The notes under the pieces were generated by a model. That model made no database searches, was not told the origin of the DNA, and worked only from the letters and a program-made list of their open reading frames with translations. Shown here one piece after another: positions 10,912-63,664 of a DNA stretch of 64,000 bases. The first letter of the stretch is position 1. Each line of letters starts with the position of its first letter. Source of the DNA: Pelecanus crispus (taxonomy: Eukaryota > Chordata > Aves > Pelecaniformes > Pelecanidae); contig NC_134643.1 in NCBI RefSeq assembly GCF_030463565.1, positions 39,594,221 to 39,658,220 of the forward strand, in the 5' to 3' direction. Both the position numbers and the translations under genes were made by a program.

Positions 10912-10914
10912 GTC
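10731..10914 (-). CDS. LLPH: LLPH first coding exon (exon 2)
   Basis: On the minus strand a pyrimidine tract ending CCCCTCAG (to 10915) precedes GAC-ATG, so only three 5' UTR bases lie in this exon. The ATG starts at 10911. The donor GTGAGT begins at 10730, directly after a G-rich end coding for LERG. The exon encodes the highly basic N-terminus, the most conserved part of the family. Confidence 0.93.
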
Positions 10915-10998
10915 CTGAGGGGAAGGAAGAGGGGAAACAGTGAGGGGCGAGGCAAGCGGAGGGCGGAGGAGCCGTTACGGCGGCGCGGGCGCCATTAC

Positions 10999-13189: not shown

Positions 13190-13396
13190 CTATTTTTTAT
13201 TAAATGCTTCCAGTAAACGCAGCAGGTGTAAGAACAGATTGATGATGTCCAAGTAGAGATTGATTGCAGCCAGTATGTACTCTTCAGGGGATAATTTGTG
13301 CATCAGCAAATGAGTGTCATAAATAATAAATCCACAGAACAGAAGAGCTCCAGCAGCAGCAAACACCAACTCTATTGTCTCACTGTAGAAAAACAG
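13190..13396 (-). CDS. TMBIM4: TMBIM4 exon 7 (C-terminal exon)
   Basis: Acceptor TTTGCCTCCAG ends at 13397. The exon codes for 68 residues from [11 protein letters not shown] to FNKK with a TAG at 13192-13190. It contains the last transmembrane segments and the conserved aspartates of YDT and YLD. Confidence 0.97.
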
Positions 13397-16300
13397 CTGG
13401 AGGCAAAGGAAACATGAAAAAAAAAATTGTAAACTTAATTTTCTTTTTAATATTAAACTCCCTGCATAATGATATGCCACACTTAAAACAATGATACACA
13501 CTGTCTTTTTACTGTTATGTACACACAAATACAGTATTACAATGACATTTCAATGTTCTTTCATATAGTCCCCAGTCACACAATCTCTTTAACGGAGTAA
13601 AAGTGCCTCCACTTAAGGAAGCTCTGGTCTCCAAAATGTTAACAACAGCACAAAAATTAGAAAAAAAAAAAAAAATTAAAACCCAAATCTCCTTCCCAGT
13701 GTCTCAATCAAGTAGTGGATCAAGACTGATAAATTTTGTCAATCAACACAAATACCACTTTTACATTAGCAAGAACAGCATCCAACAAAAATTTGAATTG
13801 GAAATGAATGGTTGAAAGATCACCAGCATGACCTATAATAGTAAAGGATGTGGTTAGCAATTTTCTTTCACTAAGCTATATTGGACTGTCCAAAACCTTT
13901 TTGTTATACCAGAAGTTAGTTAGATTTATATTAAAGAATATTTTTTAACCTTGAACACAAGGTATCTTACCCTCAGGAAACCCGAGAAGATTAAAATCCA
14001 CAAACAAGCAAAGAGGCTGGGAAAAAAAAAAAAAGAAAACCTGTGAGCAATAATTTCTTTTCTTTTAAATTTTACTTCAAATCTCTTCCCTTCCTATAAA
14101 ATCTCCTCACAATATATTTGGTAAGTACGTATCCATAATTCTTATATGCCAACTGTTCATTGGTATCAGCAGTGAAACTTGGTTTTATAAAGCTGTCAAA
14201 AGTTACACCCTAAATTGACTTTTTTAAAAATACTTGAAGCAGCTCTCTTCTGTCTCCATGAAAAATCCAGGTGAACTAGTCTTCTAGTATAATACTATGG
14301 TTTTACAAATCATAATCACAGGAAAGAATTTCTTACCAAGAAAGCAGAGCTGCATAAAATTAATAATTTAAGATAAAATACACCCTCACCATTCCCTTGA
14401 AGCAGGTTCTATTGACCTGTATTCATTATTATATCTGCAGAGCTAGCTTTAAAACCAGGAAAAACTAGCTTAACAACAACAACAAAAAAATCATCAATAT
14501 GACAACATACCCTGCTCCGAATTTGCTGAAGTCTCTCTTTGACTGCAAGGTGTATGCAGTCAGTCCAAGAAATACAGCAGTAGTAAGAATAAAGGCTTGC
14601 AAGACGATGGACACGTCATAGAAACTCACTATAAACAGAAAAAGTAGATTATCATTTAAAGAACACTACAGTATGGATTTACTAAGTTATCTTTAGAGGA
14701 AACAGAAGTTTAAACTTTCAGAGACAGGAAAAGAAAATCTTAACTGCAAACAAAAAAGTAAATTATGCATGAACTTGTCCTTGCACTTCAAAATCGTGAC
14801 CATAGGACTCACAGACCCTTGCACTAGCTAAGTTTGACATTTATAGTATGGCTGTAGCTTCTTAAATGGGGATAACAGATCTTCCCTACTCACAATAAAA
14901 AAAGAAATAAAAGAAAAAAAGAAGTATTTTACAGCTAGATATGTGAGATCTTAAGGAAAAAACTATCTGAATTTTTCATGATACTGAAACAAGGCGGGGG
15001 AAATCACAACACAGTCAGTCCTCTGTAAAGGCTTATAAAAGTTTTGATTGGGGCGTAGGAGGGTAAAGATAAGAGAAATGAGTGGAACCTTTTTTCTTCC
15101 CTCCTTAAGCTTTCCTTTCCCCAAACAACTTTTTTTTACAGGAGATCATAGGCTACCATGAAGACGTTTCATCTTATGCTGGAAGCTATAGTGCAAGGTG
15201 ATGCCATGGTTTCTCCACACACTGCCCCACCTCAACCCTGACAACCAAGTACAGACTTCTCCAAACTCAAAGTAATTCCCTTGGAGGAAACAGAGGGGAA
15301 AAATCAAGCTTATTTCACTTGCAGATCAGCTCTGCTGAGAGCTGTCTTATAGGAAAGAGCATTGCTAGCTGTACTGAAAGAACGGACGGCACAACTCATT
15401 TCTCACTTCAGGTTTATAGAGTTTCAGTTCTGGATCAGAATCCAGTTTTCTCCCTTGATTCCCTGGTTTTTGCTAAACTCACATCGCTGTCACTAAAATG
15501 TTCAAATGGGATTTATTATCACTTTAGTCACATCTAGGAATCTCAGATGGCAATTAGTACAACAGACTGGATTCCTTTTCCAATTTCTGTAAGGAATCAG
15601 ACAATAGGATGGCTACCATTTACCTGTAATGGCAACTGTCAGTGCTTCCAGTATGGTCTACAAAAGGTAAAAACAAAAAATTACAAGAACAAAAAAACCC
15701 ACAAAACACTTTACACAGAGACTTCACATACAATAAACCCCATTCTGCTACATAATCCCAGCATGCATTACATTAGCTCTCTTGTTAAATCTTTGTATAT
15801 GAAAACATGTTTAATTTTCAACAAGAAAATGGCACTCATCCTGCCTTACTGTGCTGGAAGTTGTGGTGTTACATAAAAATAATATAAACTGAAGACGAAA
15901 GAGAGACAGCCCCTACAGAAAAAAGCCATTTTCTACTCAAAGCACACAGCATTCTTACCACACTTCTTACAAACTATTCAAGGGGCTATAAAATTTCTCA
16001 GAGCTGCTATTAGATATGAACTGTTTTCAGCTTTTTGCATGCTTTTCAACATTTGAAATACTTTCATCCAACACTCTTAGTATCTCATGAGCTAAGCGTC
16101 TGCATCAATTTCCTTTTCTCACTTGTCCTTCTTTTGAAACAGCTAACAAACATATTATTGATGTCTGTGCTGAAGGCTAGTATGGGCCCTGAGTTTTTTC
16201 TAAAAGATAATTTCAAATTAAGTTTCATTACAATAAAAGATGAGAAAAGTACCTATGGCATGAACCAAGAGGTCAGAAATAACAGAACATTTAACCCATA

Positions 16301-19300
16301 TTTTGTTTAAACCAATTTATCACACACAGATTGGAATCATTCTATTCCTACACAATGTAATACTGAAACTGTCATACCACAAACTCCCACACCACATTTG
16401 GTCAAACTATTACATCACTACTTGTTGCAGCTGAACTCATTTAAAGTTTTTAAAAGTTTTACTCTCCTGCCAGAGTTCCAAAGTCAGGAAGCATATAACT
16501 GCGTTACAATTTGAACAGTCTATTTACATACACAGCAAAGCTGTCTTCCCTTTGTATCACAAATACAATTTAGGCAACTCCTAAAGCATCAAATTTCCAA
16601 TGATGCCACTGTGACTTCTTTTCAGAAGATTGATTTGCTACATAATCCAAAATATCCCAGAGCAACAGTTAGCCCGTATCTACAAATGTGCAACATCAGG
16701 CAGGAGACTGAAATTTGAGGACAGCTGACTGACCTGCCTGTGTTGGAAACATGCTCAGAATTTAGCATCAAAAAGACGACAATTAATGAAATAAACACAT
16801 ATGACTGGTTGCATTTGGATCTCCGCTAGAGGTTGTCCATCAAACAAATAAGGTAACAGAAATGCCGCCTCCTTTGCTTTTTCATAGCAAAATCACTGAC
16901 ATCAACAGAACAATGAGAGCAGATAGATATATTTACAGACACATACACACACAAAAGCTTGCTCAACCCGATTCCAAGTTCTAACACTTGCTAAAAAGAC
17001 ACTGGAAGAAACCTGAAGTAGAGGCTATCTAGGAACAACCTGTGGATAGAACCTCCAAAAAATAACTCAGAACTTCGTAAGTGTAGAGCCACCACTAGTT
17101 TGCTTCAAGGATTTCATCACAATGAAAGATATTCTAAAGACTATTAAAACTGAATTTTTGTAAATACTTACAAATCCAAAAAGCAGGTATAAATTAACAG
17201 GATGCTGGTGTCTGTAGAGGGTCAGTGCCACAATGATAGCCAAAGATCCAAACCCAGATATCAAAAGCAAGGCAGGCCTGTAAAGTTTCATACAAAAAAA
17301 GTCATGAAAATTAAAATAAAATATCTGGAAGAATAGAAAACAGTTTATATAAAACCAAGTTTTTAAGTGATCACCTAGATACAGATACTGCTCTGTATAT
17401 CCAAAGTAAATGTAAAGCAAGTTTTACGATAAAACTGCTCTAAAACATACCACCACAGATAATCAGTTAAAAATAGTACAGTCACAAGTAAAGACAATTT
17501 TTTCATACTGAAGCTGAAGACTGCCCAGGAATCCATCACTTGGAGATGAACCCATATGAAGAGGAAAATCCATGTGTACTAAACTAACAGTATTAAAGTA
17601 TATGCAATATTTTGCCTATTAAGAACTCAACATACAGAGAACTGTTTTTTGTAAGCACCTGAATGCAACAAACATGGGCACTAACTGCACCAAAGAAAAT
17701 CACTACTGACCAGTACGTATTGCTATAATTAAATCATTCAAGCAGCCCTCCCAAGCAAAAACTGGACCAAAATCAAACACAAAATTACAACAGTTCTAAG
17801 TGAGCAGGGCAATTTTACATGATCAGATTTAAGTAGAAAACTGTAGTTTTACAACCTCTGTTGTATACACTACAGCTTATACAGAAACTTTCATACAGTG
17901 TTTGATGCTTCTTTTTTATCTGGGCTTTGAAGTGAAAGTAAAAGTAAAGTCTGTGAGTGCACTTGGGGGAAACCAGAAACTGGACTCAGTGCTCTCCTCC
18001 TTTCCCCAGCTGTTCTTTTCCCCTGCCCATTCACCACAGTTTGGTTTTTCAGACTTGTTTTTTTTCCTCATGAAAATCTGAGAGGCAAAAAGAAGCAAGC
18101 CCACCAGAATTTCAGCAGATTAGTTTTCAGGGGAAAAAACAAAGTAAGATGGGGGAGAGGAGGAGGAGGGGGGGGAAGAGATGGACTGGAGTAAGACATG
18201 ATTCAGCTTTTTGGAACAGGTACCTATAAACAACAGCATTCCAAACAGATTCTAAAAGCAGATACTCAGACCACAAAACAAGAAATATTAATAATTGAGA
18301 TGTTCTGCAACTGATGGATAGGTTTTCATAGCGTCAATATTAAAATAAGCACTATTAATAAAGTGTTGATTAAAATAAAGTTTAATGATAGTAATAAAAA
18401 TAAATTTTAATAATAAACCAAGAAGAAAAATGTCAGAAAAGTTCTTTCCTAATCAGGTTACAAAATTTCTATTTCAGAATCAAAACACAGGGTATAAAAA
18501 TGATTAGGAATACTGAATTGTTCCAGAGCAACAACTACATAAACTATACTTAACACATGATAAACAGCCCCATTTCATTTTAGTATTTACCTTTCGTGAA
18601 CAAATGCCTGAACTCCAGTAGAGTACAGAAAAATGGCAGATGTGACTGTGGTCAAAAGAACTTGAATGGAAAGAATGCTGTAGACTTTCCGTAGAAAAGC
18701 TAGAATAAGAAAAATGAAATCACTTTTCAGTCACAACCAGTAAATCAGATACAATTTTTCTGTTTGATGAGGAACCATTAGAAACTCTTTATTCAGTGAA
18801 AAAGCACAGAGCAAAGCGGTAAGAAGCCATTTTTCCTTAAAAAACTGACACAGTATTCCAGCCAAATCACATTTATTCCTGGACATCATTATTTAAACAA
18901 TAACAATGATGACAAAAAAAATACAAAAAAACATTTGCAAGGAATTTGCTTCAGACTATTTTAAAAACTACATACACCTAATCTCACTAAGAAATTACTA
19001 ACAGAATACCTTCTCCATCACGTTACTAGTATCTAATGAACCTAAATGAAGAAAGGTTAACTTGGAAGTTCTGTGGGAGACAGAAAGAGCCACAAAAGTT
19101 TAAAAAGGAAAAACTTTTACAGTACTATCTATTTGACCTTCCACCATGTTAGATATTGTTTATCATCATTTGCAACTTACATTGTACTGAATGGATATCT
19201 ACAGATACAAACTGCTAGGGAAAAAAAAAACAAACCCAGAATTAAGCTAACAGTCTTCATAATTCTAGAATTATGAAGAGTGGAGAGTGGTTCAGGACAT

Positions 19301-20520
19301 ACAGATATTCTCTGTTCTGAATGGAAGGAGACCAAGTCCATTAGGCAAAATGCTCTGAAAGGAAGAATAAGCTTACAGTGAAAATCAATTCAGTTTTTAA
19401 TAGCACAGCCTAAATAAGTTTAAGAGCATGTACTGAGAAGCTGAACTACCTGCCTGCAGCAAGTAAAGTTAAATATACTTGTAAGCCATGAGGGACTGGG
19501 GCCTGTTCTGTTGCAATGAACTGAACAAAGCTAGATGTAGCCTGCTAGGCAGCATAGCCTTCTCCCCACATTATTAAATGCATCAGCAATTTTGCTAATG
19601 GCAATATCGCTTTCATATTTCCTATGGCATCCTTTATTTTCCAAAAGGATAAAACTGTATTTTTATAGGAAGAGATCTGCTCTTTATCAGAAATATCTAA
19701 TAAAAAATTCACAGCACACAGCTGTTTTTATTCCAAGATGTATCTGATAACAGTATAACTATTTCAGCAAGGATTAATAATTAGAAACCTTCTACAAGAG
19801 TATTCAATGCATTTGAGACCTGCACATTAACAGCAAAGCAGTATTTCATGGTGACCAATACAACCTTATAACACAAACGCTACAGAAGAGACAATATTTT
19901 AACACCTCACAGAAAAAAATTCAAATCCCTCAGTCTCCTGGTTAAAATACTGTAATTTTGGGCACCAATTTTAGCTTTTATACATGTTATGTATATTGTT
20001 CGGGCTTCAAAATGCATCACTCTGGGGAAAATCAAGTCTGAATCTATATGGGTTTCATCCCTCTGATAAAAAAGACCCGCCTCAGGTCTGAGAAATGAAA
20101 AATGAGAAAATGCAGTCTTTTGCCGGCCGCCCATCTTTCTCTCACCCTCGACGCTAAACCCGGACTAAGCAACGCCCTGGCTCCCCAACTCACGGCCTTT
20201 ACCCAGAAGGTTAAAACATTGCGCAGAACCTGAATTCAGCTGAACGCCACAGGCGATGGGGTTAACAGAGAGGAACCTGTTGGGAGCACTGGGGCGCGAC
20301 ACCCCTCTGACCGCCCGGCAAGGGGAGGCAGCAGGGGCTGCTCCCCAAGGGCTGGGGGGGCCTAAAAGGGGGGAGGAATTCGTCGGGGAGGCGGCCTTGC
20401 TCCTCCCCTGCCCCAGTCCCTACCCATGCGGATGTGGACGCTGGCCGAGGCCACGTTGGTGCCATAGTTGAAATCATCTTCGATGGAGCTCCGCGGATAG
20501 AGCTGCTCCGCCGCCGCCAT
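13190..20520 (-). CDS. TMBIM4: TMBIM4 (Lifeguard-4 / Golgi anti-apoptotic protein), seven coding exons
   Basis: Multi-spanning protein of the BAX-inhibitor-1 family. Members act mainly in Golgi/ER membranes as calcium leak channels and restrain apoptosis. Coding exons on the minus strand: 20520-20424, 18699-18591, 17277-17172, 15657-15624, 14628-14511, 14016-13971, 13396-13190. They splice in frame to 238 residues, the human length. The N-terminus carries the cytosolic motif [13 protein letters not shown]. Hydrophobic segments cover residues of about 37-60, 70-90, 97-120, 122-142, 155-175, 178-198 and 208-228. The C-terminal region has [15 protein letters not shown] and [14 protein letters not shown]; their two aspartates fit the pH-sensing pair of the family. 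The end is basic (FNKK). No lesion was seen; the gene appears functional. Confidence 0.97.
13971..14016 (-). CDS. TMBIM4: TMBIM4 exon 6
   Basis: A 46-nt exon coding for [15 protein letters not shown] (one base completes the preceding Gly). Acceptor: a long T-run then CCCAG. Donor: GTAAGA starting at 13970. Confidence 0.93.
14511..14628 (-). CDS. TMBIM4: TMBIM4 exon 5
   Basis: A 118-nt exon beginning in the Val codon and continuing [12 protein letters not shown] to DFSKFGA. Acceptor CTGTTTATAG, donor GTATGT at 14510. Confidence 0.95.
15624..15657 (-). CDS. TMBIM4: TMBIM4 exon 4 (micro-exon)
   Basis: A 34-nt exon coding for [11 protein letters not shown] plus one base. Acceptor CCTTTTGTAG, donor GTAAAT at 15623. 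It is found only by following the human protein; it is needed to keep frame between exons 3 and 5. Confidence 0.9.
17172..17277 (-). CDS. TMBIM4: TMBIM4 exon 3
   Basis: A 106-nt exon coding for [15 protein letters not shown] to NLYLLFGF. Acceptor AACTTTACAG, donor GTAAGT at 17171. Confidence 0.95.
18591..18699 (-). CDS. TMBIM4: TMBIM4 exon 2
   Basis: A 109-nt exon coding for [18 protein letters not shown] to GVQAFVHE. Acceptor TTATTCTAG, donor GTAAAT at 18590. Confidence 0.95.
20424..20520 (-). CDS. TMBIM4: TMBIM4 exon 1 (start exon)
   Basis: Codes for 32 residues, [20 protein letters not shown] onward to HIRM, plus one base; donor GTAGGG at 20423. The start was chosen because it gives the human-like short N-terminus and has purine at -3 and G at +4. 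An in-frame ATG 57 nt upstream would add 19 residues with no family match. Confidence 0.95.
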
Positions 20521-26028: not shown

Positions 26029-26098
26029 ATATGGTTGGACTGGATGATCTTAAAGGTCTTTTCCAACCTAAACGATTCTATGATTCTATGATTCTCTG
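26029..26098 (+). mobile_element. CR1 3'-tail fragment
   Basis: About 70 bp of the CR1 3' end (GGTTGGACTGGATGATCTTA, then TTTTCCAACCTAAACGATTC and ATTCTATG repeats). It is severely 5'-truncated and lies 340 bp upstream of the first IRAK3-like relic. Confidence 0.88.
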
Positions 26099-26369
26099 AT
26101 AGAGCAGGCCTGTTGCCATAGATTCACCCATAAAACCCAAGTCAGCAAACTTCCTTTGATGGAGATGCAGTCCCATCTCTGCTAGGACAGCTTTATCAGT
26201 GTGGAAGTACCTACACGGAGTACGGACCCCTCTATTCTGGGTGCATATTGGTGCTAGGATTTCCGGGAGGAGAGGAGGGCACAGCTCGCCCTCAGGCACT
26301 GCCAGCACTGGGGTTTTGTCTGGAGTGGCTTCGCAAGGCACAAGGCGTGCCTGAAGTTACCTCATCTCG

Positions 26370-26462
26370 TCACGCTGCCATCACACGCAGGTTGACCCCA
26401 ATGTGCAGAGGCTACTTGCAACTCCTGCAATGCCCTGACCGGGGTCTGGGAAAAGGAACTTG
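26370..26462 (+). pseudogene. IRAK3: Possible IRAK3 exon 1 relic
   Basis: A frame reading RLTPMCRGYLQLLQ then D-R-G-L-G resembles the human N-terminal LPP..G.L...L..CD..LGW segment, and ends ..GAACTTG, which would join the CT of the next exon to give Leu-Ala. The match is short and weak, the donor is gone, and the implied intron is only about 120 bp. It may be chance. Confidence 0.3.
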
Positions 26463-26584
26463 AGATGTTCAATGTCTTTCACCGTCTTCAGGCAAAAATG
26501 CCAGGGGCACCAAGAGGACTTTGGGCCATGAGGTGCTGTTACCCATCAAGCAGCCCTTAGTTTTCCCACACTTTTTTCCCACAG

Positions 26585-26735
26585 CTGAGTGGCTTTCAAG
26601 ACGCTTGCTGGAGCTTCACAGCATTGAAAAATACGGAGAGAAGGACAAAAGTGATGTGAGAGGCTTATTCTGGTGCTGATAGACACCAGCTATGCTTGAG
26701 CTCTCTCCGTCCTAAAAGTGAGGCATCTGAGTTAC
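26585..26735 (+). pseudogene. IRAK3: IRAK3 relic: death-domain exon
   Basis: After an intact acceptor (TTTTTTCCCACAG) the frame reads A-E-W-L-S-R-R-L-L-E-L-H then SIEKYGEKDKSDVRGLFWC. This aligns without gaps to the human death domain LAERLSSSW..HIEKY..GKS..R.LLW. At the next tryptophan the frame meets TGA then TAG (26677-26682). Beyond that, after small shifts, T-P-A-M-L-E-L and L-K-V-R-H-L continue the family pattern to a possible donor GTAAAC at 26736. Confidence 0.85.
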
Positions 26736-26894
26736 GTAAACAAGCGGAAGGGGAAAGTCCACGTTGAGACGTACCCTATAAACCTTTTGCTTTTCAGGAA
26801 AGCACAACCATATCAAATTGATAGCTTAAGTACACATATTTAATGTAAGGGAAGATATTTTTGACAGCAGTGTTTGATTTTAAGCCTGTTTCAG

Positions 26895-26975
26895 AAATGG
26901 TTGATACTGAGTATGCAGAAAAGCAGCCAAAATTACATAGTAGTGGTAGTTATGCTAAGAAATTGAGTGATCCAG
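26895..26975 (+). pseudogene. IRAK3: Possible IRAK3 exon 3 relic
   Basis: An exon-shaped 81-nt segment: acceptor CCTGTTTCAG, an open frame including EKQPKLHSSGSYAKKLSDP, donor GTAAAT. Size and place fit the human proline/serine-rich linker exon, but sequence similarity is slight. It is listed because it lies between two firm relics. Confidence 0.3.
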
Positions 26976-27183
26976 GTAAATTTCTACTGTAAATCCCTAA
27001 ACTTGGCCTACTGTCATCTGTGTGAGATCTTGCTGACCATTCTGTAAGCATGCATCATTTGGAGCACATCTGCATTGTATTACATCCTAATCCAGTTATC
27101 CAATACTGCTTTTTGTTTTGAGAGATCCTTGCCGGAGAAAAATAGATTTTAAAATTATTTTAGAAAATGGTTGTCTCCCTATC

Positions 27184-27219
27184 TTAATGAGTCAGCCATT
27201 TAAGTGATTGACTCATTAA
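27184..27219. repeat. Inverted repeat with two AP-1 sites
   Basis: Perfect 11-bp arms TTAATGAGTCA (27184-27194) and TGACTCATTAA (27209-27219) are separated by 14 bp. Each arm contains a consensus AP-1/TRE heptamer. It lies in a remnant intron of the IRAK3 pseudogene. It could be an old regulatory element or a chance hairpin. Confidence 0.6.
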
Positions 27220-27649
27220 ATCTAATACTTGGTGTTAGACATCTAATCTAATTAGAAATCTAATATCTCTGCTAAAATATTAAACGCATTCATTAATACT
27301 TGCCAACAAAGTAATTGTAATTGCAAGTGAACCCTTTTAATGGTGCTTTTGTGATTCCTGGCCAAAATACATAATTTTTCACAACAGTTGCGCAGTTCCT
27401 TTAAAGCACTATGTCCGAAGTGAGCAGCCATGTTTTAGATGCTACCACTTTTCCTTTAACTGAAGATCATTGCTGGGGCAGGATTCTGCTTAATCATCTC
27501 TGTGAGGCCTCTGAAGGGAAGGACAGATGTGACACTTAAAGTATTAACATAATTATAGTTATTTATGAGTCTTCCAATGACCTTAAGTTTTGGGGAACCT
27601 GGCCCTTTATATTCAAACATTAATTTCTCCTTTTTCAAGAATTAATTTT

Positions 27650-28103
27650 AACAAGGGTCTGGAGCACAGGCCTTATGAGGAGTGGCTGAGGGAACTGGGG
27701 TTGTTTAGCCTAGAGAAGAGGAGGCTGAGGGGAGACCTTATCGCTCTCTACAACTACCTGAAATGAGGTTGTAGTGAGGTGGGTGTTGGTCTCTTCTCCC
27801 AAGTAGCTAGCGATAGGACGAGAGGAAATGGGCTTAAGCTGCGCCAGGGGAGGTTTAGGTTGGAAATTAGGAAAAATTTCTTTACGGAAAGGGTGGTCAA
27901 GAATTGGAACAGGCTGCCCAGAGAGGTGGTGGAGTCACCATCCCTGGAGGTGTTTAAAAAATGGGTAGATGTGGCACTTGGGGACCTGGTTTAGTCTAGT
28001 CTACCCTTGATTGGCTTAGAATAGACTTGGTAGTGTGGGTTAATGGTTGGACTGGATGATCTTGAAGGTCTTTTCCAACCTAAACGATTCTAAACGATTC
28101 TAT
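27650..28103 (+). mobile_element. CR1 LINE, 5'-truncated, 3' end
   Basis: A CR1 tail starting inside ORF2 at GGTCTGGAGCACAGGCC, with [14 protein letters not shown] and [20 protein letters not shown], then the 3' UTR ending ..CGATTCTAAACGATTCTAT. A stop at about 27763 breaks the frame (..AAATGAGG..). It is inserted in an intron of the IRAK3 relic and is closely related to the copy at 11.5 kb. Confidence 0.92.
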
Positions 28104-30342
28104 AAGGAGAGACTGATCTGTCAGCTGGCTTCCAAAGCGTCACTTCCAAGGTATTTTCTAAGTACTGGATCTCAGTCTGAAGACTCCTGTGCTCTAATAT
28201 ATAGCAAGACTGAAATATCTGATTTTACATGGCTGTGATGCAAGTCATTCCAGGCAAAAAGTCCAAAAAAGGCCCCAAATCCAGCATAAGCGCCTCTGGC
28301 AAATTAAAAAAAAAAAAAAAAGCAAAAAAAAAAAGCTTTTATGAAAGAATATCTTCAGAAAGAGTTAGACTCAAATGCCCTCTACCATGCCTCTGGGTTC
28401 GTTCCTTAAATACTAGCAGACTCTCTGCGAACAAGTCACACAGTATGGACTTTGACTGCCGGGGCAAACTCTGAATTTCCCAGGTCAGTGGAGAGTTTCT
28501 TTGTGGAAGGCTTCCTTGCCTGGTGCGTGTCCTCCCTGCGTTAGAGGAGGGGGATTGCACCTCTGTTGTTAGGTCTGGGAGTGCCTTATAGTTAAACTGC
28601 TGGTTTTCTGAAGTGCCTTGCAATACACATGGCTGCCCAGATTATTCTGAAGATCTGTGTACTTTTTTGAGGGTGTGGAATAGGGCCATATTTGAGATTG
28701 CTTGAGCTGGAAGTTCATCCAGGAAAGGTGGGATTTACAGTCCCACTTAAAAAAGCTTTTGATTGCCAACATTAAGTAGAAATTTTAGCAGAGTTTGCAT
28801 GGACATGGGACTGACTTATGACTTTGCTCTCTCCTAAACTGGTTCGCTTGTTTGATTTTTATACAATGATTTGTTTACAACTGCATGTTAGCTTAGGTTA
28901 GAAGGAACGCAGACGGAAAGTGCAGCAGCTCATCCTGAAGAACTTCAGGAACAGACACTTCTAAAGATAAATTTTCACAGCCAGCCGTATTTTCGTATAA
29001 CTCCGTACTGAATAACTTAATGTGTAGATCATAATCAGTATGAGCTGATCTGCCTGAGGGCTGCTGCTTGTGCTCGCAGGAGGAAGGCGATGGGCAGACA
29101 GGGGTTGGTGGCAGGGAGAGGGTGTTGCATTTTTGGGTGGCAGCCTGCCTTCCAGCAGTAGTTAACGTTTGGCCCAACTATTTCCTTTGTGGATATTACA
29201 TTCAAAAGTTATCTGGAGCAAAATTAGTCTTTCAGTAGTGTTTAGGCTTGGGACAGCATCAGATAAAATAACTTTTCCAATGCAGCAGGTTGGAGCCCTG
29301 GTACACACTGGGTACCAGTCTAAAAGCGTGTGGCTCAAGGTACGTGGCAGGACCAGCTGGTTCCCAGCCATGCTGTGGTGCCAACAGTTTGAATATTTCT
29401 TTGCCAGTCTCAGAAATACATGGTGTGGCTGGTATTTTATGTTGGGCTTCTTAGGATTTTTGCCCAGAGGTGGAAATGCACACGCAATCTCAAAATACTT
29501 AGAAAATTGCCATGCCCACATCTATGTCCTGCATGGAGTGGATGACAGAAGTTAGGCGTTATCTGGATAGCGAATTCTCCCTTAAACTTTCTCCAAAATC
29601 GTGTTGCTTTTCTCTTCACATTCCTATGAAATTTGCAAGTTGCTGAGAGGTTGCACTGCTGTGGTTACACTCGGGAAGCACTTAGGAGGCAGCTGAAGGT
29701 GTCGGTCCTGTCAGATATTATTTTGGGGGAAGAAATCCCAGGCAGAGCTCCTCCTCCATCTAAAATACACATCTGGAACATTTTCAAATGGATATGATTT
29801 TATTGAAGAGCTAAGAGGAACAAAAGTTTCTGACCTCATGATATTTTTGTCTTTTTAATACAAAAAATTGAGTAAATTTTGCAGTGCTGGAAAATGTTAC
29901 CTAAACATTCTTTGCATCCTATGTTCCAGAAAGTAGAGGGCATCATTCATCTAATTTAAGTTTGTTGCATGGCATTTTAGGGCAATATTAGGGAACATAC
30001 TTGTGTCTACTAGGCACTCTAGAAATACAGTATCTGCATAAACCACCCCAAATATTCTGTAGCTTTTTTCAGAGAGATGTGTAGAAGCAGAACTTCGGGC
30101 ACGTATGCATTCTGCTTGGGAGACCAGTTATAGCAGTGGTTATGATGATCTGGCTGCTTGCAGACAAGAACTTTCCAGAGGCTAATTGGTAACATACACT
30201 TTTTTTTAACTAATGCTATTAATTGGCTGTGCTGTGCTGGATTTTGCAAAGGAATTAATACACTAAGGTAAGCTACAAAATTCTAATGATGTGCTGATAA
30301 AAATACATAGAGTTAAGTTCTTTCTTTCTCTTTTTCTTTTAG

Positions 30343-30385
30343 GAAACAATTAGTGTAGCATGCATCCCTGAGTCTCATCGTTAAG
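30343..30385 (+). pseudogene. IRAK3: IRAK3 relic: short linker exon
   Basis: A strong acceptor (CTTTCTCTTTTTCTTTTAG) is followed by codons for ETISVACIPESHR, TAA, and G, then donor GTAAAA. This matches the human exon ET.NV...LIPEHNEKG, with a TAA (30382-30384) near the lysine position. Splice sites are intact although the frame is closed. Confidence 0.7.
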
Positions 30386-31751
30386 GTAAAAAAATACTTA
30401 AATATGCTTTGACTGACAGTTTCTAGCAGCACCGATGTGGGAAAAGATGCTTTTCGTCAGCCTCACATATAATTATAATTCTCATTGAAATTCTTTCTGT
30501 AAATAGGTTGATGCTGGGAATATAGTTTGAGAAGCTCACATGCTTTCCTGAAATTTATGCTTCCCATGATGGCAATAAATTACAAAACTCATGTTAAGTG
30601 CCTTCTAGTTCTCAGAATACAAATGTAGATTTTTCCTTTAGAGGGTTACTGTCATTCTGCATCTGTGAAGTTTGTTACTTCTACACAGAATAGGAAACAA
30701 ATATAAAACTGCTGCATTTTTGCAATTTTATAGATGTTTTAATTCATCAACAATCTTGCAATATGTAGATACCATTTATGGTATCATTGATGGTATTTCT
30801 AAATACAGACTCTTTAGCACAGTTTTATTTTGGCTATGAAACTGTGGCTTCATCTCTTAGGTTACATCAGCCTAAGCACTTGATGTGTACCACCGTGTCC
30901 CATCCCACTGATACCACTATCCTGAAGTAACAAGAGATAAAGCTTCTACTTTAATTAGTACATGTCTGGGACTGTGTTTTTCTGTGACAGAAAAGTCTTT
31001 TATGAGAAAAGCTCTTGATTAACAAAATCCCAATCAGGTTTCTGACAATAGAGAAAGTGGGTTTATGTATCAAAATATCTATTGCTTTCAAATGTAAAAT
31101 GTTTTAAAATTAATATTTAAAAAACCCCATAAATTTTAAAAAGCAAAAAAAAAAAAAAAGAAAAGGTTGTTTTAATAATGAGTACTCCTCCTGGATGTCC
31201 AAAACATTAGTTTTTTGCATAATTCCATTCAGGATTTCCCCCCGCCCCCGCCCTAGTTTTCTTTATTTGCCTGTGCTTAAGAGTATGGAAGCCCAGAGAC
31301 TGACCTTGCTTGTAATTTGAAGTATGTTCAGGAGCAACTTGAACATCTTGGAAAGAGTGCATGTTTCAGCTCTACTGTTCAAACTTCCTGGTGGTGTTGA
31401 GGCTTGATTTCAGTGAGCTCTAAATAATTATAGTTTTCCTGAAGGTCTGGCTGAAAAGAAACATCATGAGCAGTGCAACATTAAATAATACAAGCGTTCT
31501 GAAGTTTGGGGTGAGTATCTTTAGCAATAAATACAAATCAGTAAGGGGACTTTGAACTTACTCTGTAGTGATGGGGGCTGAGATAACTAAGCCAGGACCA
31601 GTAGAGCTGTGCCCTCATATTCCACCGCAAGTATGTGCAGCCTTTGGGGGAGGTTAGTGGCCATCCCTCTGAGCTAGCAGGCCAGGCAGGTGGTGCTGTG
31701 TGTAATCTGAGTCTTGTAAATGTTAATTTTATCTATGTTTATTTTGGTGTG

Positions 31752-31900
31752 GGTTTTTGAAAGCTGCTGGGTGGTTTTAACAGGAGGAAAATTTTAATTA
31801 AATGTCTTGGAATTCCACTCCCTGGGATAAAAGTTTGGAATAGAACAAAAGAAGAAGGGAAGATCAACTTGCCTTTTGCTGTCAAGAATGTTACAAATAA
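31752..31900 (+). pseudogene. IRAK3: IRAK3 relic: kinase N-lobe exon
   Basis: Reading with one frame change, F-E is followed by LLGGFNRRKILI and later KVWN, then INLPFAVK. This parallels the human FQNIIEGTRNFHKDFLI..EVYR..QNLTYAVK. The alanine-valine-lysine of the nucleotide-binding strand is at 31878-31886. The segment between is expanded and shifted. Exon edges are not clear. Confidence 0.6.
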
Positions 31901-32551
31901 TTCATTAGCTAGTGGTATTGAGACATCAGAGGTGATAGAAGGTATCTCCACATGGTTTTATTTAATTTATGAACATATGGAAATACTGTAGTAATTTTCC
32001 CGGGTTTTGTTATGTGGTGTTGTCTGTTGCAATTTTGCGGCGGTGACTGAGAATCCAAAGCTCCCTGCCATCGAAGCTGAAGAGGCGCAGGCTTTTTGTG
32101 TGCTTGTTTTTGGAAGGACTTGCTATCAGTCTGATTTCTGTTAAAGATTGTTTAATTAAAATATAATTGCAGAAGAAATGGTACTAATTAGCACATATGT
32201 GCTCCCACAAAGTGTAGCTTATTCCCATTCATTATGGACATGAGCGTGAACTGGATCTCTTACAGCCGTCCTGGAAACACTCCCAACGCAAGAGTGCTCC
32301 TGGGACCTTCTGCCTGTCTGCAAGCAAAGGAAATGGAAAAGTCTTTGGTATCTTCCCTGGCATATGTTTATTCTTACCTTTTATTCTGGCAAACACATTG
32401 CATGTTCCCCTGTGGCCCGAGTATTGGATGTAAGCGAGGTAAATGACTTTGCCTTTATGATAGAGGAGTTGCATCCCACATTAACAAGTCTTAAGAACAT
32501 CTGTGCACTGTAACTCACATATTGATTCTATATGTTTCCTGGCTAATATAG

Positions 32552-32612
32552 AGGCAAAACATATGAAGAAACAGTGGAAACTCTCTCATTCAGAAATTGA
32601 AGCTTTGCAGTT
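32552..32612 (+). pseudogene. IRAK3: IRAK3 relic: alpha-C helix exon
   Basis: Acceptor GGCTAATATAG, then A-K-H-M-K-K-Q-W-K-L-S-H-S-E-I-E-A-L-Q plus two bases, donor GTGAGT at 32613. It matches human KKMQCKKQWK..LSELEVLL. The exon itself has no lesion, and its phase-2 end joins the first base of the next relic to give Leu, keeping frame. Confidence 0.82.
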
Positions 32613-33372
32613 GTGAGTTGATTTTATGTTTTAGCTTTTCCTTTTCACATTAACTTCTTGCCAAGCTGCATGTAAACCTCCTTTGTCTAGAAAATGCAAC
32701 CTTTTCAAGACTAAAATATTCCAGGGGTTAGCTGAAACTGGTCTTAACAGTGCTATTCTTCTGGCTTCATGCCTATGGAAGTGGTTAATGGTTGGAATTT
32801 ATGTCACAGAACACATAATAATTTGTTAGAAGAAACTGGATTCAGTCACAGCACAGGAGTTTTTCTCTTCCTGTCATTATATTTTGTGAGGACTTACTTA
32901 TTTCCTGCAATCTCAGCCCATGTGAAGAAGAGAATGATAAAATTTCTGCATAATTTTTCTGAGAATACATTTATACTCCAGATGACCTTTGGAGTAAATT
33001 TGAACTATTAGATTTTCCCACATATTTATAGCTGTGGCCATGCATCTTTGCCAGCAAATCTTACAGGCTTTATCCACCAAATATTTATTTATGGTAAAAA
33101 ACCCCAGTTTTCACTTGGAACAATATAGAAAAAGTTCAAAGCCATTACATTTGAAGTTAAGCTTTCATTTATAGTCTTATTTTTTCTGTATTGTCATCAG
33201 CCAATGTTACATTCAAATTTGTAACCTAAGCTGACTGTTTACTTCATTTAATTCCTTTCTGTGCTGATAACTGTTGCCTGTGAAAGTGATTTTCCTGAGA
33301 CCACACAGGCATATATAAAATAGCGGTCCTTTTTTCTTTCTCCTGAGGATACAAAAGCTACCTTATGCCTAG

Positions 33373-33478
33373 GTTTCTTTGTCCAAGCTTACTTGAACTG
33401 GATGGATATTTCTCAGAGAATGGGCTGTTCAGCTTTGTATTAAGAAAAAATAGTGTGGAAGTCTTAATTTCCAAATAA
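33373..33478 (+). pseudogene. IRAK3: IRAK3 relic: central N-lobe exon
   Basis: Acceptor TTATGCCTAG, then G completes the previous codon and the frame reads FLCPSLLELDGYFSENGLF onward to V-L-R-K-N-S-V-E-V. Human has FHHPNILELAAYFTETEKF..MRNGTLFD. A TAA at 33476-33478 ends the frame; it may fall just past the original donor. Confidence 0.82.
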
Positions 33479-34694
33479 ATACTGGCAATTCCATTTTGTG
33501 TCAGACTTTATCAAAGTATTTGCTCATACTATAGGAGGTATCCTCTTGTTGACTATATTAAAATATATTCCCAAAGAAAAAATATTTGCCGCAGAATACT
33601 TTTGATTTGAGAATTTGATCTGGATTTGTGTTTGTGATTTTCTGCTTCCATGTCTGGCTACACAGTGCTCTGTACATCTTGCGGCACCGTGGGACACCAG
33701 TGCTGTTACGTTACTTCCACCCTGGACAATACCCATGTAAGCTGGTTCTCGGTAGATATCACCAAATGATGCTCCTGAAGAAACCTGGAACTTGGAGGAA
33801 GGAGGAACACTCACGTGCGATTGAGCAGAGGCCCCCATGGAGAAATACCTGGGTGTACAGGGTCCAGGGACAGACTGTGCTGGGCAATACAGCTGTGTTA
33901 CTGGCCTGCGGCGTGGAGGAAGTGCTGCTCTCCACAGATTCACATTAGCTCCGTGGTTTCCTTGAGCAATGACCGTGAACGTGTGTCAAGGCCCCAGTTC
34001 ACCAGTGCCATTAAGAACTGTTTCTTTTTAAACATACCTTTAAGTCTGGTCTCAAAATATACATTTAAGTGCTTTGCTGAACTGAGGATTAAGTGTAGCA
34101 CCTGTGTTATCTTATACACTGGGTTTATGCACCGCAGGCATTGAAGAGGGTCAAATGAGAGATCATTTATCCTAATTACTGTGATGTAAGAGGAGCAGCA
34201 GGGGGTAGAGAGGCAAAAAATTCTTTAAGCTTGCCAGGTACAGAACAAAAGCATTTTCAGCACCCTTTCAAGACGTGTGATGGTGCATAGTCTCCCATGT
34301 CTTGGTCAATCCTTTTATAACTACACTGAAAATGGATTTGCCCTGTCAACATTAGTTGAGAAACCCTTGTTGCCAATAATTGAAACCTGCAATAGCAATA
34401 GATTTTTCCTAAGATTAAATGGGCTTTGAAAGCCTCCAGTACAACTCAATGTAAAACACTCTCCATTACCGCTGGCGTTCATACCAACCCAATCTCTTCA
34501 ATGTCTGTTTTAAGCATTTCTTTTTTGTAAAGGTAAGAAAAAGAAGGCGTTGTAAGTCTTGGTATTGCAAATACATTTGTACTTCCTCAGCAGTATCGTC
34601 ATAATTTGTGCTGAAAAAGAGTAATATGAACTTCAGCCCCTCTGACAATGTTGCAAGGTTATTTATTAATTTTGATGACAAAACTCAGCTGTGT

Positions 34695-34800
34695 GGCATT
34701 TAATGAAGGAAAACAAATTAGACCATGCAGGTGGAGGGAATGTATAGGAGAATCTATATCAAAGCCCTTCAGTGAATATCCAGTCTATATTCAAAGGCAG
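34695..34800 (+). pseudogene. IRAK3: IRAK3 relic: hinge / alpha-E exon (tentative)
   Basis: The frame EGKQIRPCRWRECIGESISK then PFSEY follows the human pattern P-W-H-I-R-I-G-I-L-I..S-K-A-I-H-Y, with two residues missing. It lies in the proper order between firm relics. Similarity is moderate and exon edges are uncertain. Confidence 0.45.
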
Positions 34801-35284
34801 AAGGGTAGCAATTATCATATGGTGGGGCTTTTTAAATTTTGCCATTTACTGTTGTGCTTTTTGAAGTGGAATTTTTGTATTACACAGAGAATGTATTTAG
34901 TTACAGTGCCTCTGTTTTTATCATGACGGTCTCTCACTACACTGGCAAACTTTTGTGAATGTATTAATAGGAATAGCCAAAGCTTTTCTGTATTTGCACA
35001 TAACCCTGCCCTGTTATATGTGTCAGAATAGCAAGGTATGTCTTAGAAATGACATTTTCATACATGCTGTATAGTATGCATACACGGACAGAGCAGTAGG
35101 AACTAGCATGGCATGACATGTATTTAGAAAGCAACCACTCTATAGAGTATAACTGCTTAATTCTGTCAAAACTTTTTGGTTTTCAAATCTTTGGGTAATA
35201 AAGAATTTACTTAGTGTTGGCCAGTTGCCTGGTTTTGTGAAGAGCTCTTAGAGGAATGAAAGGCATTAAAGTGACCTGGTTCTG

Positions 35285-35620
35285 CGTCAGGGGACCCCAT
35301 TTCAGCTCAGACTGGGGCTGTCAGTCCTTGCTCCAGCTACAGTGTAGGTGACCTTGTCCCCAGCCTTGCCTGGGTGTGGACCCTGATGACCCAGACCCTG
35401 ACTTGCAGACTGACTTTCTGGTTTGGCCTCGGACCTGTTGTGTCACCACAAGTGTGTCTGGCAGCGGGGCTGGGGGATGCCCCTGGCTGCCCCCCCAGCC
35501 TGCCCCGCTCCCTTGCTGGGGCGGTGGGTTGGGCACTGGCCTGCCCACCCCCATTGGGGTCCCCCATGGGTCCTGGCACCCTGGCCCCTTGCAGTGACTG
35601 TGGGTGTTCAGTCCTTCCCT
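35285..35620. other. GC-rich block of unknown origin
   Basis: About 330 bp far richer in G+C than its surroundings, with C-runs and few CpG, open in several frames on both strands. It has no CpG-island promoter character and no known exon. It may be a fragment of an avian repeat. It lies in a remnant intron of the IRAK3 pseudogene. Confidence 0.5.
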
Positions 35621-36265
35621 AAACATCATACAGGTGAAACCTTGATCCTCCTCAAATTTTTGTTGAGCTCACTGAACCTGTGAGTGGGAGTCATGGTGCA
35701 CCTGCAGAAGATTAATTGTAAAACAAGAGGCTGATTTTTGCAATTTCAACCATGGTTGAAACTTCATGGCTATTCTCGGTTATATGAACGAAAAAATTGA
35801 GCTAGAGTTCATGGTGGTCACTTCTGCCTTCTCCACATGATGTGAATTCAGATGGATGGATTTTACAGGAACTAGTAGACAAAGATTGGCTTTTTGCATG
35901 AGGGCAAGTATTTGGAATTTAAGGTCAAAAAGAATTTGGTTTTGGAAGTTATGAACAGCTGAATAGAGAATTTAGAATGGAAGTAACTATTACATTAGCC
36001 ACGCACTAGTACTAATAAATACTAAACAGTGCGGTTAGGCACTGACCCAGTGTATGCTTATTTTAAGCATCTGCTCAACTTGAAAAAATGTAAGGAATCT
36101 CACTGAAAGTGGTAGACATTTTCAGCTTATTCTTCCAGCATGAACATAAATGGGATTGCTTCAATGAAGCTATAATGCACAATAAAATATTAATCTAATA
36201 AACAGGAAGAATTTGATGCATTGGGAAAATGTAAGCATTGCATTTCCTTTGCCTGATTTTTCACA

Positions 36266-36305
36266 CTCCCTCCCTCCCTTCTTTCTCCCTCCCTTCCTTT
36301 TCTCA
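36266..36305 (+). repeat. CCCT/CTTT polypyrimidine tract
   Basis: Forty bases of C and T in CCCT and CTTT words. It lies just upstream of the acceptor of the core kinase relic exon. Confidence 0.75.
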
Positions 36306-36327
36306 TATGTAAGCTATATATATACAG

Positions 36328-36534
36328 CTATATATAATCCTAGTACAAACATACTTTTGGATGACCGTAATGAACCAAAATTGTCTGACTTTGCTGTGTC
36401 ATGTCTGAGATCCCATGTGGTACTTCAGATTTGCACTGAAACTATGCATACCAGTAAGTTCTGGAGATACACGCCAGAGGAGTTATTAAAATGGGGCAAA
36501 CCCTCTGTAAAATTATGTCTACAGCTATGGAATA
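36328..36534 (+). pseudogene. IRAK3: IRAK3 relic: pseudokinase core exon
   Basis: Acceptor ATATACAG, then N-P-S-T-N-I-L-L-D-D, P-K-L-S-D-F-A and L-R-S-H, followed by Y-T-P-E-E-L and G-K-P-S-V-K. Compared by eye with human SANILLDD..PKLTDFA..FRSH..WYMPEEYIRQGKLSIK, about half of the positions agree. A 2-bp loss near 36513 shifts the frame; in the shifted frame VYSYGI completes the exon. The donor position has GC, not GT (36535-36536). No HRD-type catalytic aspartate is expected in IRAK3. Confidence 0.9.
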
Positions 36535-36810
36535 GCAAGAATCAACTTCTGTAAACCAATAAACAAATCTTTTTTCTAAATTATCTGATTGGGAAAGGGG
36601 ATGATCTTAATCTTTTAGCATTATTTGATTTAATGTTAAATATTGTGCAATGATTTTACCATTATAAGGAATGTAAGCAATAAAGAATAAAATAATTTGC
36701 TAAAAAAGATGACTGTTAAAAGGTATTTAATAGCTATAGTTGGTTATTCATGGTTTCTTAATATTTTATGATCTCAGAAAATAGCCTAACTTTATTTTGA
36801 ATTATTTTAG

Positions 36811-36871
36811 GATATAATGGAAGTTTTGTCAGGCTTTGAAGCAGAGATAAAGGGTCCAAAACACTCTGTTG
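36811..36871 (+). pseudogene. IRAK3: IRAK3 relic: C-lobe exon a
   Basis: Acceptor GAATTATTTTAG, then D-I-M-E-V-L-S-G-F onward to G-P-K-H-S-V, donor GTAGGA. Human has VIMEVLTGC..DDPKHIQL. It joins the previous relic in the shifted frame as G-I-D-I-M-E. The 3' end seems to have lost one or two bases. Confidence 0.85.
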
Positions 36872-36957
36872 GTAGGAGTCACAGTTCAAAAAGGCATGCT
36901 ATGTTCCTAATTTTTTTTTTTTTTTAAATGTAACTATGTTATACTTTTTCTTGGCAG

Positions 36958-37085
36958 AAGGATGTGATGGTGAACATGATGGAGAAGGGTAGCTTTGATT
37001 CATGCCTTGCAAATGCTTGGCCTAGTATGTCAATGTACATCATGTGCAAAGCTGAGGTTCACAGTGAAAGAAGTTTGTATGAGAT
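36958..37085 (+). pseudogene. IRAK3: IRAK3 relic: C-lobe exon b
   Basis: Acceptor CTTTTTCTTGGCAG, then KDVMVNMMEKGSFDSCL. Human has RDLLRELMEKRGLDSCL. After a loss of about 18 codons, another frame reads C-L-A, TAG (37023-37025), then a further shift leads to A-K-L-R-F-T-V-K-E-V, the human AKLRPSMDEV. Two shifts, a stop and a deletion rule out function. Confidence 0.85.
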
Positions 37086-37290
37086 GATAACTTTTATGAT
37101 TAAAATGGTATTTTACAACAGGAGGAGAAAGCCAAGAACGGGATCAAAAGCTGGGCAGAAATGGCAGCACAGTCTTTACCAATTACAATTAGATACCAAC
37201 AACAGAAGATGGGAAGATGATCCAATATATATAATTAAATATAATTTTTTATATGTACTGGTCTTCTCAAAATAACCATTCATTTTCCCC

Positions 37291-37510
37291 AGCTGCCTCT
37301 CTGTCACATGCTATATCAGGACTATGTGGATTCGGGTACCAGTATTGCTAACGCACTGCTCGACACAGATGTCTGTGTGTAGAGTGGGAAGAGCTCCCTG
37401 CCATGCTGTAGATACTCTGGAGCAGTGCATGCAGACCCCAGCCTATGCGAGAGTTATTCAGTATTCTGGTTTTGAAGATTGTCAGCACGGTAATGGTAGA
37501 ATGCCTTCAC
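37291..37510 (+). pseudogene. IRAK3: Possible IRAK3 last-exon relic
   Basis: An acceptor-like TTTTCCCCAG opens a stretch with frames of some length. One frame has P-S-L-C-E-S-Y, reminiscent of PSSSCEES in the human C-terminal tail. The tail evolves fast, so the match is not diagnostic. Confidence 0.25.
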
Positions 37511-37639
37511 TTTAGATGGTTACTTTGCAGTCCTTGATTTAAGTTAAGTCAAGGTAGAAGCGGCTGAAAATATTTTTGCATATGAAGTTGAAACAGGTCA
37601 CACAGCTACAGAGATCTATGAAGACACAACTGGCTTAAG

Positions 37640-38180
37640 GATCATAGGATCACAGGGCAATTCATAACCTTAGGTCTCAGAAGATCTCTAGTCTTACCTC
37701 CTGTGCAAAGCAGGCTCAGCTGTGAGACCACACCAGGTTGCTCAGGGCTTTGTCTAGACTGGTTTTGAAAAACTCCAAGGATGGCAACTATATATAACCT
37801 CTCTGGGCAACCTGTAGCCTTGCCTGACTGTCCTCATGGTGAAAAACATTTTCCATATAGCCAGTCTGAACGTCTTCTTTCAACTTACGCCCCTTGTCTC
37901 TTGTCCTTTCACTGTACACTGCAGGGAAAAAGCCTGCCTCTGTCTTCTTGATAACCTCCTCAAAGGTACTGGAAAGCTGCTATAAGGTCCCCGTGAAGCC
38001 ATCTCTTTCCCAGGCTGAAGAAACCCTGGTCCATCAGCGTCGTCATGCAGGGCAAGTGCTCCAGGCCTGACCATCGTGGTGGCCCTCTGCTAAACTTACT
38101 GCAGTTCGTTGATATCTTCTTCTTGTACTGGGGGACCCAAATCTGGGCACAGTATTCTAGATGCAGTCTGAAAAACATAT
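37640..38180 (-). mobile_element. Older CR1 LINE copy
   Basis: Minus-strand CR1 3' end with clear divergence. The frame retains H-L-E-Y-C-A-Q-I-W-V-P-Q-Y-K, G-L-E-H-L and F-F-S-L-G-K-R-W-L-H-G-D-L-I. The tail on the plus strand starts ATCATAGGATCACAGG. Older than the copies at 11.5, 27.6 and 62.7 kb, with shifts and stops. Confidence 0.85.
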
Positions 38181-41100
38181 GATTTTAGTTGGATCACTTC
38201 TCTGATCTGTCTCAGCCGGAGGCTGCAAAAGCACTGGTGCCAGCAGAAGGCAAGGAAGATGCCCAGGCTGGTGAGGGCAGCGAGGAGGGCAGAACTGCCC
38301 TTGCCGGCAGCAGTGTGAGCTGAGAAGAGCTTATACAGCTCTTGTGCAGCATTAGAAAAGTGTCAGCTTGGGGCTGCCCATGAGGACAGTCTCCTCTCCT
38401 TGCATTGGCGAGGCTCCTCTGGCACTAATGAGCCTCGGGTTCCCTTTTCAATTGACACCCCAGTTTTTGTGCAATCCCTTCCACACAATGGTTGTATTTC
38501 CAGAAGAAAACCTCAGGTGGCAGCAGCACCATAGCTTTTGTAATCGGTCCTGGTCTTCGTGCAATTCTGCCTTGTGCCACCAGTCATTAGAACTTGTTAA
38601 CGAGGGGCCCTTGTGCTTAACAACATTATTAGCAAATCATCAGCCTATCGAAGAGTGAAAGTGTTCTTTTCTGGCTGATTTAGTGATGTGCAGATCTCAT
38701 TTGGAAGTCCTGGATCCATGTTTTTTATATTCATGCAAATGATGCATATTTTTATATAGTCATGTAAGAAGAATTTGGGTTACTTTGAGTTGATAATGTG
38801 TTTGATCTGAGTTAAACCTCTTAGAGGACTCTCTGAAAGATTGTCTGTCTCCTTTAAGATAGATAGTCATCCACTCTCTGATTTCTTGTATGTGATCGTA
38901 TGGGACCAAAAAGGAGGGAGGAAGGTATTCAAAGGATCGCTAAAAGGGCAGGAGGGAATCCAGAAGGGAGGAATTTGGGAGTAGAACAAGCAACAGAAAG
39001 TTAAAAGGAAACATGGTGAGAGATGTAGGAAATCAGACGGAGAATGCACAAGGGAGGAAAAAGCTTGAGCCTGGTTGGAATAAGAGTTGTTTCTCACAGC
39101 TCAGTTTTTGGGGCTCTTGAACACCTTCAGTTCCTTTGCACTGTTTCAAGACACAGTGTCGCAGAGATCAGCTTTGGAATTTCCTGCTGTTCTCACTTGC
39201 AATGACTCTGTCTTTCCATCTAATTGGTGGTTTTTAGGCACTAGACACTAGAAAATTCTCTCTATACTTTGAGTTTCACTGCCAGTCTGCCAAGATCTTT
39301 GAAGTTTTTCACATCATTTCCTCTTCCAGGCTCCCGCCATTAAAGTGTACCTGTAGAAAACAATAAGCACCAAAACTTTCTGTTCTCTGCTCCCAAAACA
39401 GACAAGTGAGCAAAGAATATTCCTCTTTAGCACAGTGGTTCTGAAGTCACATTCCTGTGACTGGACAGAACAAGAAAACAGTTTCAGGATCAGCAGAAAA
39501 ACTGCCACTGAAAGGGGACTGGCAACGGGCCATTTCTCCAGCCTAGCCCCAAAACCACCATGCTTCCTGATACCCACAAGAGCTTGCGACCTTCTTTTAC
39601 TTGACTGCAGCATTAAAACAAGCTTGTCATGGTCTTGTGGGACTGAAGAATGGACACCAAAAGACATCAGCTCCTTCTGCGCTGGAAAATAAAGCAAATG
39701 GTAAATTTATTCAGTTTTAATAGGCGGTGATGCATTTTTGGTACATCTGCTACATTTGATAGTGATTATAGGAGTGTCTTTGATGCTGTAGTGTCCATCT
39801 GTTCATGTCACCTTGGCCTGGTTTAGACACAGGTGAAGCTGTTATTTGGAGGAGTGCATGTAGGTAAGGTGACTGAAGGCCTGAGAATGGGGCAGTCCCA
39901 CTCCTTGCTGCTACTTTAACTATGCCTCAGTGCAGCACTAGAGGGTAGAGGAGAACTACAGCCCTTCCTGTATCCTCTCTGCCCAGGACTAGGATGAGAA
40001 ATGGGGGAGTATGCATCCACATGTACCATCTCTTGCTGTATGGGATTCATGATGGGAAGGAATGGTTGGTAGACTGCATGCTTTGGCACTGCTGTTTTAG
40101 AGACTGCTGCCAAGTGTGGGTAATGCCACTGCTCAGCACAGTTTGCAGAGTGTGTCCAGGAAGTGGAGAAATTAGGATGAAGCGATAATGTGTAGTGTTA
40201 AGATGCAGGTGGCATCTCAAAGCTGGTGCTATTTTTCAGAGTGGTGGGTGATCTCAGTAGGCTGGTCTCCCAGGTCAGCACCCTACCAACACCACATCTC
40301 ATCATGCAGCAGGCGGGTAGGTGAGCAAGGCCAGATGTCTCAGACGGCACTGTGAGATGCAAGGGATTCCTGTGGAGCAAGCCAGCCTAAACATTGCATT
40401 TTGTGCTTTTGCTTGCTCGGCAGAAGTACAGGCACATCCTCACACTCTGTCTAGATGGATGTCATACCTGAGCAGATCCTCCTTGAGTCCCTGTTGCTCA
40501 GATCAGCCAAGCTGTGACCTGTGAGAGGTCCCACAAGCATCAGCAGGGCTACTCAATCTGTGGCACAGCCAAGCAGTCACAAAATTGGATGGGTCTCCTG
40601 GACCAGCACTGCTGAATCTGGGTGCAGAGTGGAGCAAGGGTCTAACTCCAGTGCCGTCTGCTAAGCGCATCCTCCTCCAGCACGCTGGCACTCGCTCCAG
40701 AACCTTCTCGCCTGAACCACCAGTGGTGGTGTATAATAAACCTTTTCTTTGGGAAGATGGTAGGTGATTTTGCATACCAAGTGAAGCATATAAGGCTCCA
40801 GTTGTTTCAATACTGGAAAGAATGGGATGAAGGGTAAAAGAACCTTGCAGTAGCATTTCCTTCCATAGTAACAGTTTTCTAAAAACTTCAGAGTTATTGC
40901 TAAGTAATATACATATAACTATCCCTTTTAAAATTAATTGTTCACTGGAGATGATTTTATGTCATTTTATAAATGTACAACCTAATTAAAATACAACTGC
41001 TGGTCTATTAAATACCTGATTTGCCCATATTTCTTTGTTTTATTATAACGAAGCGCAGTATTTTAAATTGTGAGTTGACTTGTGCACAGGGTTTATATTA

Positions 41101-63660: not shown

Positions 63661-63664
63661 GCGC

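Follow-up and report, generated by a model that had tools for sequence, protein, structure and literature searches.

A 64,000-nucleotide stretch of Pelecanus crispus DNA (the window; C1:39594221-39658220, within a 310-contig assembly of 1.31 Gb) carries a locus that is almost certainly a unitary pseudogene of IRAK3, decayed in place between TMBIM4 and HELB with its introns present. IRAK3 (IRAK-M) is a vertebrate pseudokinase that acts as a brake on MyD88 signalling and damps inflammation in mammals. A unitary IRAK3 pseudogene had been proposed in a preliminary description of this DNA, and the proposal is upheld by the analyses below: IRAK3 fits the locus better than IRAK1 (compared through one structure), IRAK4 or IRAK2, the introns are kept, and no second IRAK3 was seen. 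The general features of the locus and its neighbors are shown in Table 1.

Table 1. Remnants of IRAK3 and neighboring genes in the window. Residue numbers are those of the human proteins; IRAK3 exons are numbered as in this analysis.
Feature	Part represented	Positions	Strand	Remarks
LLPH	5' coding part	10477..10971	-	lies beyond TMBIM4; Pfam PF10169, E 7.4e-21
TMBIM4	7 exons, residues 1-238	13193..20520	-	no stop or frameshift; six GT-AG introns
IRAK3 relic	eight exon remnants (exons 2 and 6-12)	26584-39469	+	collinear
IRAK3 exon 2	5' half, residues 45-74	26584..26673	+	14/30 identical
IRAK3 exon 6	3' part, residues ~200-218	32554..32612	+	donor GTGAGT kept
IRAK3 exon 7	from residue 219	33373..33439	+	acceptor CCTAG kept; 3' end uncertain
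IRAK3 exon 8	residues 253-287 aligned	34901..35035	+	acceptor TTTAG; donor GTATGT by reading
IRAK3 exon 9	residues 296-362	36344..36534	+	36 of 62-63 aligned residues identical to human
IRAK3 exon 10	residues 363-381	36811..36871	+	acceptor TTTTAG and donor GTAGGA kept
IRAK3 exon 11	residues 384-441	36958..37081	+	internal loss, frame change
IRAK3 exon 12	5' part, residues 442-521	39245..39469	+	four in-frame stops

The human IRAK3 query was checked by a database match, with 98% identity across all 596 residues. When compared to the window by tblastn it gives collinear matches on the forward strand at 26584 (E 0.03), 34901 (0.001), 36342 (1.7e-10), 36814 (1.4) and 39245 (0.004). A profile of 18 sequences (the human protein, 16 named mammals and one unnamed match, the named references being all mammalian) recovers 36342, 39245, 34922 and 26584 unaided, and finds no other match in the window. 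The profile was then aligned to positions 20501-41500 with a purpose-written aligner that is spliced and frameshift-tolerant. This alignment scores 327, as against 91-132 in seven controls, for which the profile was column-shuffled (three times) or reversed, or the region was replaced by its reverse complement or by one of two stretches from elsewhere in the window; the 327-scoring path also includes chance-level pieces for exon 1 and residues 76-176. The earlier description of collinear IRAK3 segments on the forward strand is thus borne out, and the spliced alignment that had been suggested with crocodile or turtle IRAK3 proved collinear when run with this profile.

Individual exons were examined with 20 column-shuffled profiles each, in intervals that were picked after the matches had been seen, unlike those of the whole-region test. 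None of the 20 shuffles matched the observed score for exon 2 (62.6 versus a shuffle maximum of 51.3), exons 6 and 7 jointly (63.3 versus 51.3, exon 6 being tested only together with exon 7), exons 7 and 8 jointly, exon 9, exon 10 (45.8 versus 28.9), exon 11 (57.8 versus 48.3) or exon 12 (90.4 versus 43.9). Exon 8 matches IRAK3 among solved structures with an E-value of 0.0014, with one other chain at 1.2. The C-terminal exon that follows the pseudokinase domain in IRAK3 is also present, as a profile match at 39245-39496 (E 2.2e-8). Because exons 1, 3, 4 and 5 and residues 522-596, about half of the protein, were not found in the region, we infer part of the gene. A candidate exon 1 in 20900-26600 was equalled by 6 of 20 shuffles, and exons 3-6 taken as a block by 4 of 20 and 11 of 20 under two settings, so that both are unsupported; 30340-30385 and 31761-31900, which seem plausible on visual inspection, are left unclaimed, the exons 3-6 block being at shuffle level. 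The interval originally proposed, 26370..37510, contains most of the relic, but its first part (26370-26583) is unsupported, given the shuffle result for exon 1 and evidence that begins at 26584, and the last exon, at 39245-39469, lies past its end.

Introns are retained in the relic, both in the computed alignment and by reading. The aligner itself placed two donors (exons 6 and 10) and four acceptors (exons 7, 8, 10 and 12), in agreement with the earlier observation that splice sites are partly kept; it also picked an unconvincing donor within exon 7 and some ends that are not GT or AG. Reading of the sequence gave further sites, namely an acceptor each for exons 2, 6, 9 and 11 and a donor for exon 8. 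Mammalian borders were taken from exon-skipping database proteins (4 of 13 compared in each case), which place exon 2 at residues 45-105 and define a skipped unit of residues 219-296. The statement that all junctions lie at introns could be checked at two borders only, and held at both. The intron at residues 218/219 coincides with the mammalian border and has a GTGAGT donor and a CCTAG acceptor in the computed alignment. At residues 296/297, by reading, the last base of a CCTAG is 36343, right at the start of the match to exon 9; the whole-region aligner took an AG 30 bases upstream instead.

As read from its sequence, the locus does not encode a full IRAK3 protein: half of exon 2 is gone, exons 9 and 11 are frame-broken and exon 12 holds stops. 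The match to exon 2 ends after residue 74 and runs into TGC TGA TAG, with residues 75-105 of the mammalian exon gone. In exon 9 two bases are missing near 36513-36516, and GC stands at the position expected for the GT donor. Exon 11 has lost about 15 codons, with a change of frame near 37009, and the stops of exon 12 are at 39341, 39407, 39428 and 39458. Stops, frame breaks and an internal loss, as listed in the preliminary description, are present; at exon 2 it is the whole 3' half that is missing and not the donor alone.

It is very unlikely that these features belong to a diverged or shortened IRAK3 that is still in use, with some exons (such as 6-11, the pseudokinase) expressed and the missing ones too diverged to be seen. 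In exons 2 and 6-11 none of the 220 aligned codons is a stop, several splice sites are retained, and the GC donor of exon 9 could work, as GC donors are sometimes functional. Against this, exons 9 and 11 are broken in frame, exon 2 leads into two stops and exon 12 has four. Still less probable is an intact gene made to look broken by errors of sequencing or assembly. A crude model of HELB is mostly open; it lacks GT at two ends, and one segment that fits poorly holds two frame breaks, which may or may not be of this kind. The missing half exon, the internal loss and four stops in a single exon speak against such errors, as does TMBIM4, which lies a few kilobases away and is free of lesions over its 7 exons, just as first described.

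The distribution of lesions in the pseudogene may hold a trace of their order. All four stops in the aligned frame fall in exon 12, whereas exons 2 and 6-11 are free of them. Three of the stops are at matched codons, and the chance that all three would lie in exon 12 is ~0.002 by nonsense opportunity or ~0.015 by codon share, in a test that is post hoc and biased, in that stop-rich pieces align less readily. We tentatively suggest, as an unlikely course of events, that decay was stepwise: the C-terminal exon, which we take to be the TRAF6-binding region, may have broken first, leaving a tail-less IRAK3 of death domain and pseudokinase that was useful for a while and then lost.

Sequence comparison identifies the relic as IRAK3 as against IRAK1, IRAK2 and IRAK4. 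Against single human sequences it scores 403 for IRAK3 (maximum of 10 shuffles 208), and no better than shuffles for IRAK4 (134, shuffle maximum 155) and IRAK2 (161, shuffle maximum 180), the IRAK2 query being partial. Exon 9 alone scores 158, 70 and 68 against human IRAK3, IRAK4 and IRAK2, respectively. Among solved structures it matches IRAK3 at 6.2e-10 and IRAK1 at 0.56, which is the sole comparison with IRAK1. The activation-loop DFA is retained, as in human IRAK3. The CGS that replaces the catalytic HRD is absent from the relic, where the alignment gives CQN, as a motif in a dead gene is expected to be free to drift. Both the CGS and DFA motifs of IRAK3 are described in the available portion of PMC7955167.

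A second IRAK3 elsewhere in the genome, a search for which had been proposed at the outset, was not seen in the 1.31 Gb assembly among the 20 matches examined of 29. A search of the assembly with the peptide of exon 9 yields two matches at E<=10, one being the window itself and the other having an E-value of 9. With full-length human IRAK3 there are 29 matches at the same threshold; 20 of them were made into loci and compared with IRAK2, IRAK3 and IRAK4, the nine weaker ones falling outside the examined set. In this comparison of 20 of the 29 matches IRAK3 is the sole fit for the window locus, IRAK2 the best fit for three loci at C7:51.27 Mb, and IRAK4 the best fit for two at C1:34.66 Mb. Thirteen others behave as general kinases would, with IRAK4 above IRAK3 in 12 and one tie; they include the best assembly match of all (2.8e-8), on C5, with 106 bits for IRAK4 and 65 for IRAK3. 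Locus L015, at C8:28.0 Mb, was considered as a second IRAK3 and rejected, as it is matched by IRAK3 alone and yet is closest to RIPK3 and RIPK2. At L015:1576-1764 it is a kinase fragment with CHCSLKPSN where HRDLKPSN is usual, RIPK3 and RIPK2 being closest among solved structures. RIPK3 is reported lost in birds in the available text of PMC9573974, so the RIPK identity of this fragment may merit a look.

Protein databases were searched for an intact sauropsid IRAK3 using the relic's own residues. One query gave 852 candidates and no match, and another 105 candidates with a single match, a plant kinase. Both also miss mammalian IRAK3, because few exact 5-residue words are shared (the best 120 proteins found with the human query share a mean of 3.4 and 2.0 with the two relic queries), and these null results are therefore weak evidence. 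The human query itself found 892 proteins; the best 120 of the 892 comprise 117 named and 3 unnamed proteins, and we recognize the 117 as all mammalian; birds or reptiles may stand further down among the 892.

The relic sits between TMBIM4 and HELB. HELB gives no tblastn match at E<=1 within the window; its matches, 8 in the genome search, start ~80 bases past the window end on the forward strand. The gene order here is also that of humans. There is next to no probability that the locus is a processed copy or a duplicate that decayed while a working IRAK3 lies elsewhere, perhaps in a hard-to-sequence region missing from the assembly, since the retained introns show that the relic is not processed, its neighbors are those of human IRAK3, and no further IRAK3 locus was seen in the 20 of 29 assembly matches examined.

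Other content of the window includes pieces of CR1-like retroelements, identified by eye, at 62953-63750 (-), 11345-11875 (+), 27630-28110 (+) and ~26060-26100. Two of these pieces hold long open frames resembling reverse transcriptase, and one lies within the IRAK3 intron that follows exon 2. A long AAGG/AAAG microsatellite occupies 45739-45977, downstream of the relic. No Rfam family at gathering score and no tRNA gene was found in positions 1-64000.

These observations are best explained by decay of the IRAK3 gene at its original position, with introns and flanking genes retained. MyD88 signalling in this species probably runs without the IRAK3 brake, because the other IRAK-type matches in the genome resemble IRAK2 and IRAK4. 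By analogy with mammals, restraint on MyD88 signalling may be looser in this animal, and the loss of IRAK3 would bear on how such animals limit inflammation.

The loss probably extends beyond this species, as Aves are reported to be without it. In the portion of Gosu et al. 2012 (PMC3498205) that was available, Aves are given as lacking IRAK1 and IRAKM, and reptiles and amphibians as lacking IRAKM; PMC6763605, also in its available part, reports a loss in sauropsids and amphibians. The available text of PMC7955167 has IRAK3 present throughout vertebrates. Among the best matches listed in the open literature, subscription papers lying outside the scope, there is no description of an avian IRAK3 pseudogene; two papers that bring up IRAK3, birds and pseudogenes together have titles on other subjects than birds. 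The absence of IRAK3 from birds having been in print since 2012, it is the relic itself that is the addition. With it, what had been an absence inferred from sequence sets becomes a physical loss of known position, whose lesions lend themselves to comparison and dating; the finding is well supported and of use in dating a loss, the absence itself being already known.

The loss of RIPK3 in birds, as presented in the accessible part of PMC9573974, is similar in that it concerns another innate-immunity kinase reported lost, and differs in the gene; no relic is discussed in that part. The report in PMC3498205 concerns the same missing gene in the same group, but describes, in the part available, an absence from sequence sets with no mention of a pseudogene or synteny, whereas here there is a decayed gene. 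Unlike vertebrate IRAK3, the relic has no open full-length frame, and half of the protein is unrecognizable; it is nonetheless like vertebrate IRAK3 in the order of its exons, in an intron position, in the sequence of eight exon remnants, in the activation-loop DFA, and in its neighbors TMBIM4 and HELB.
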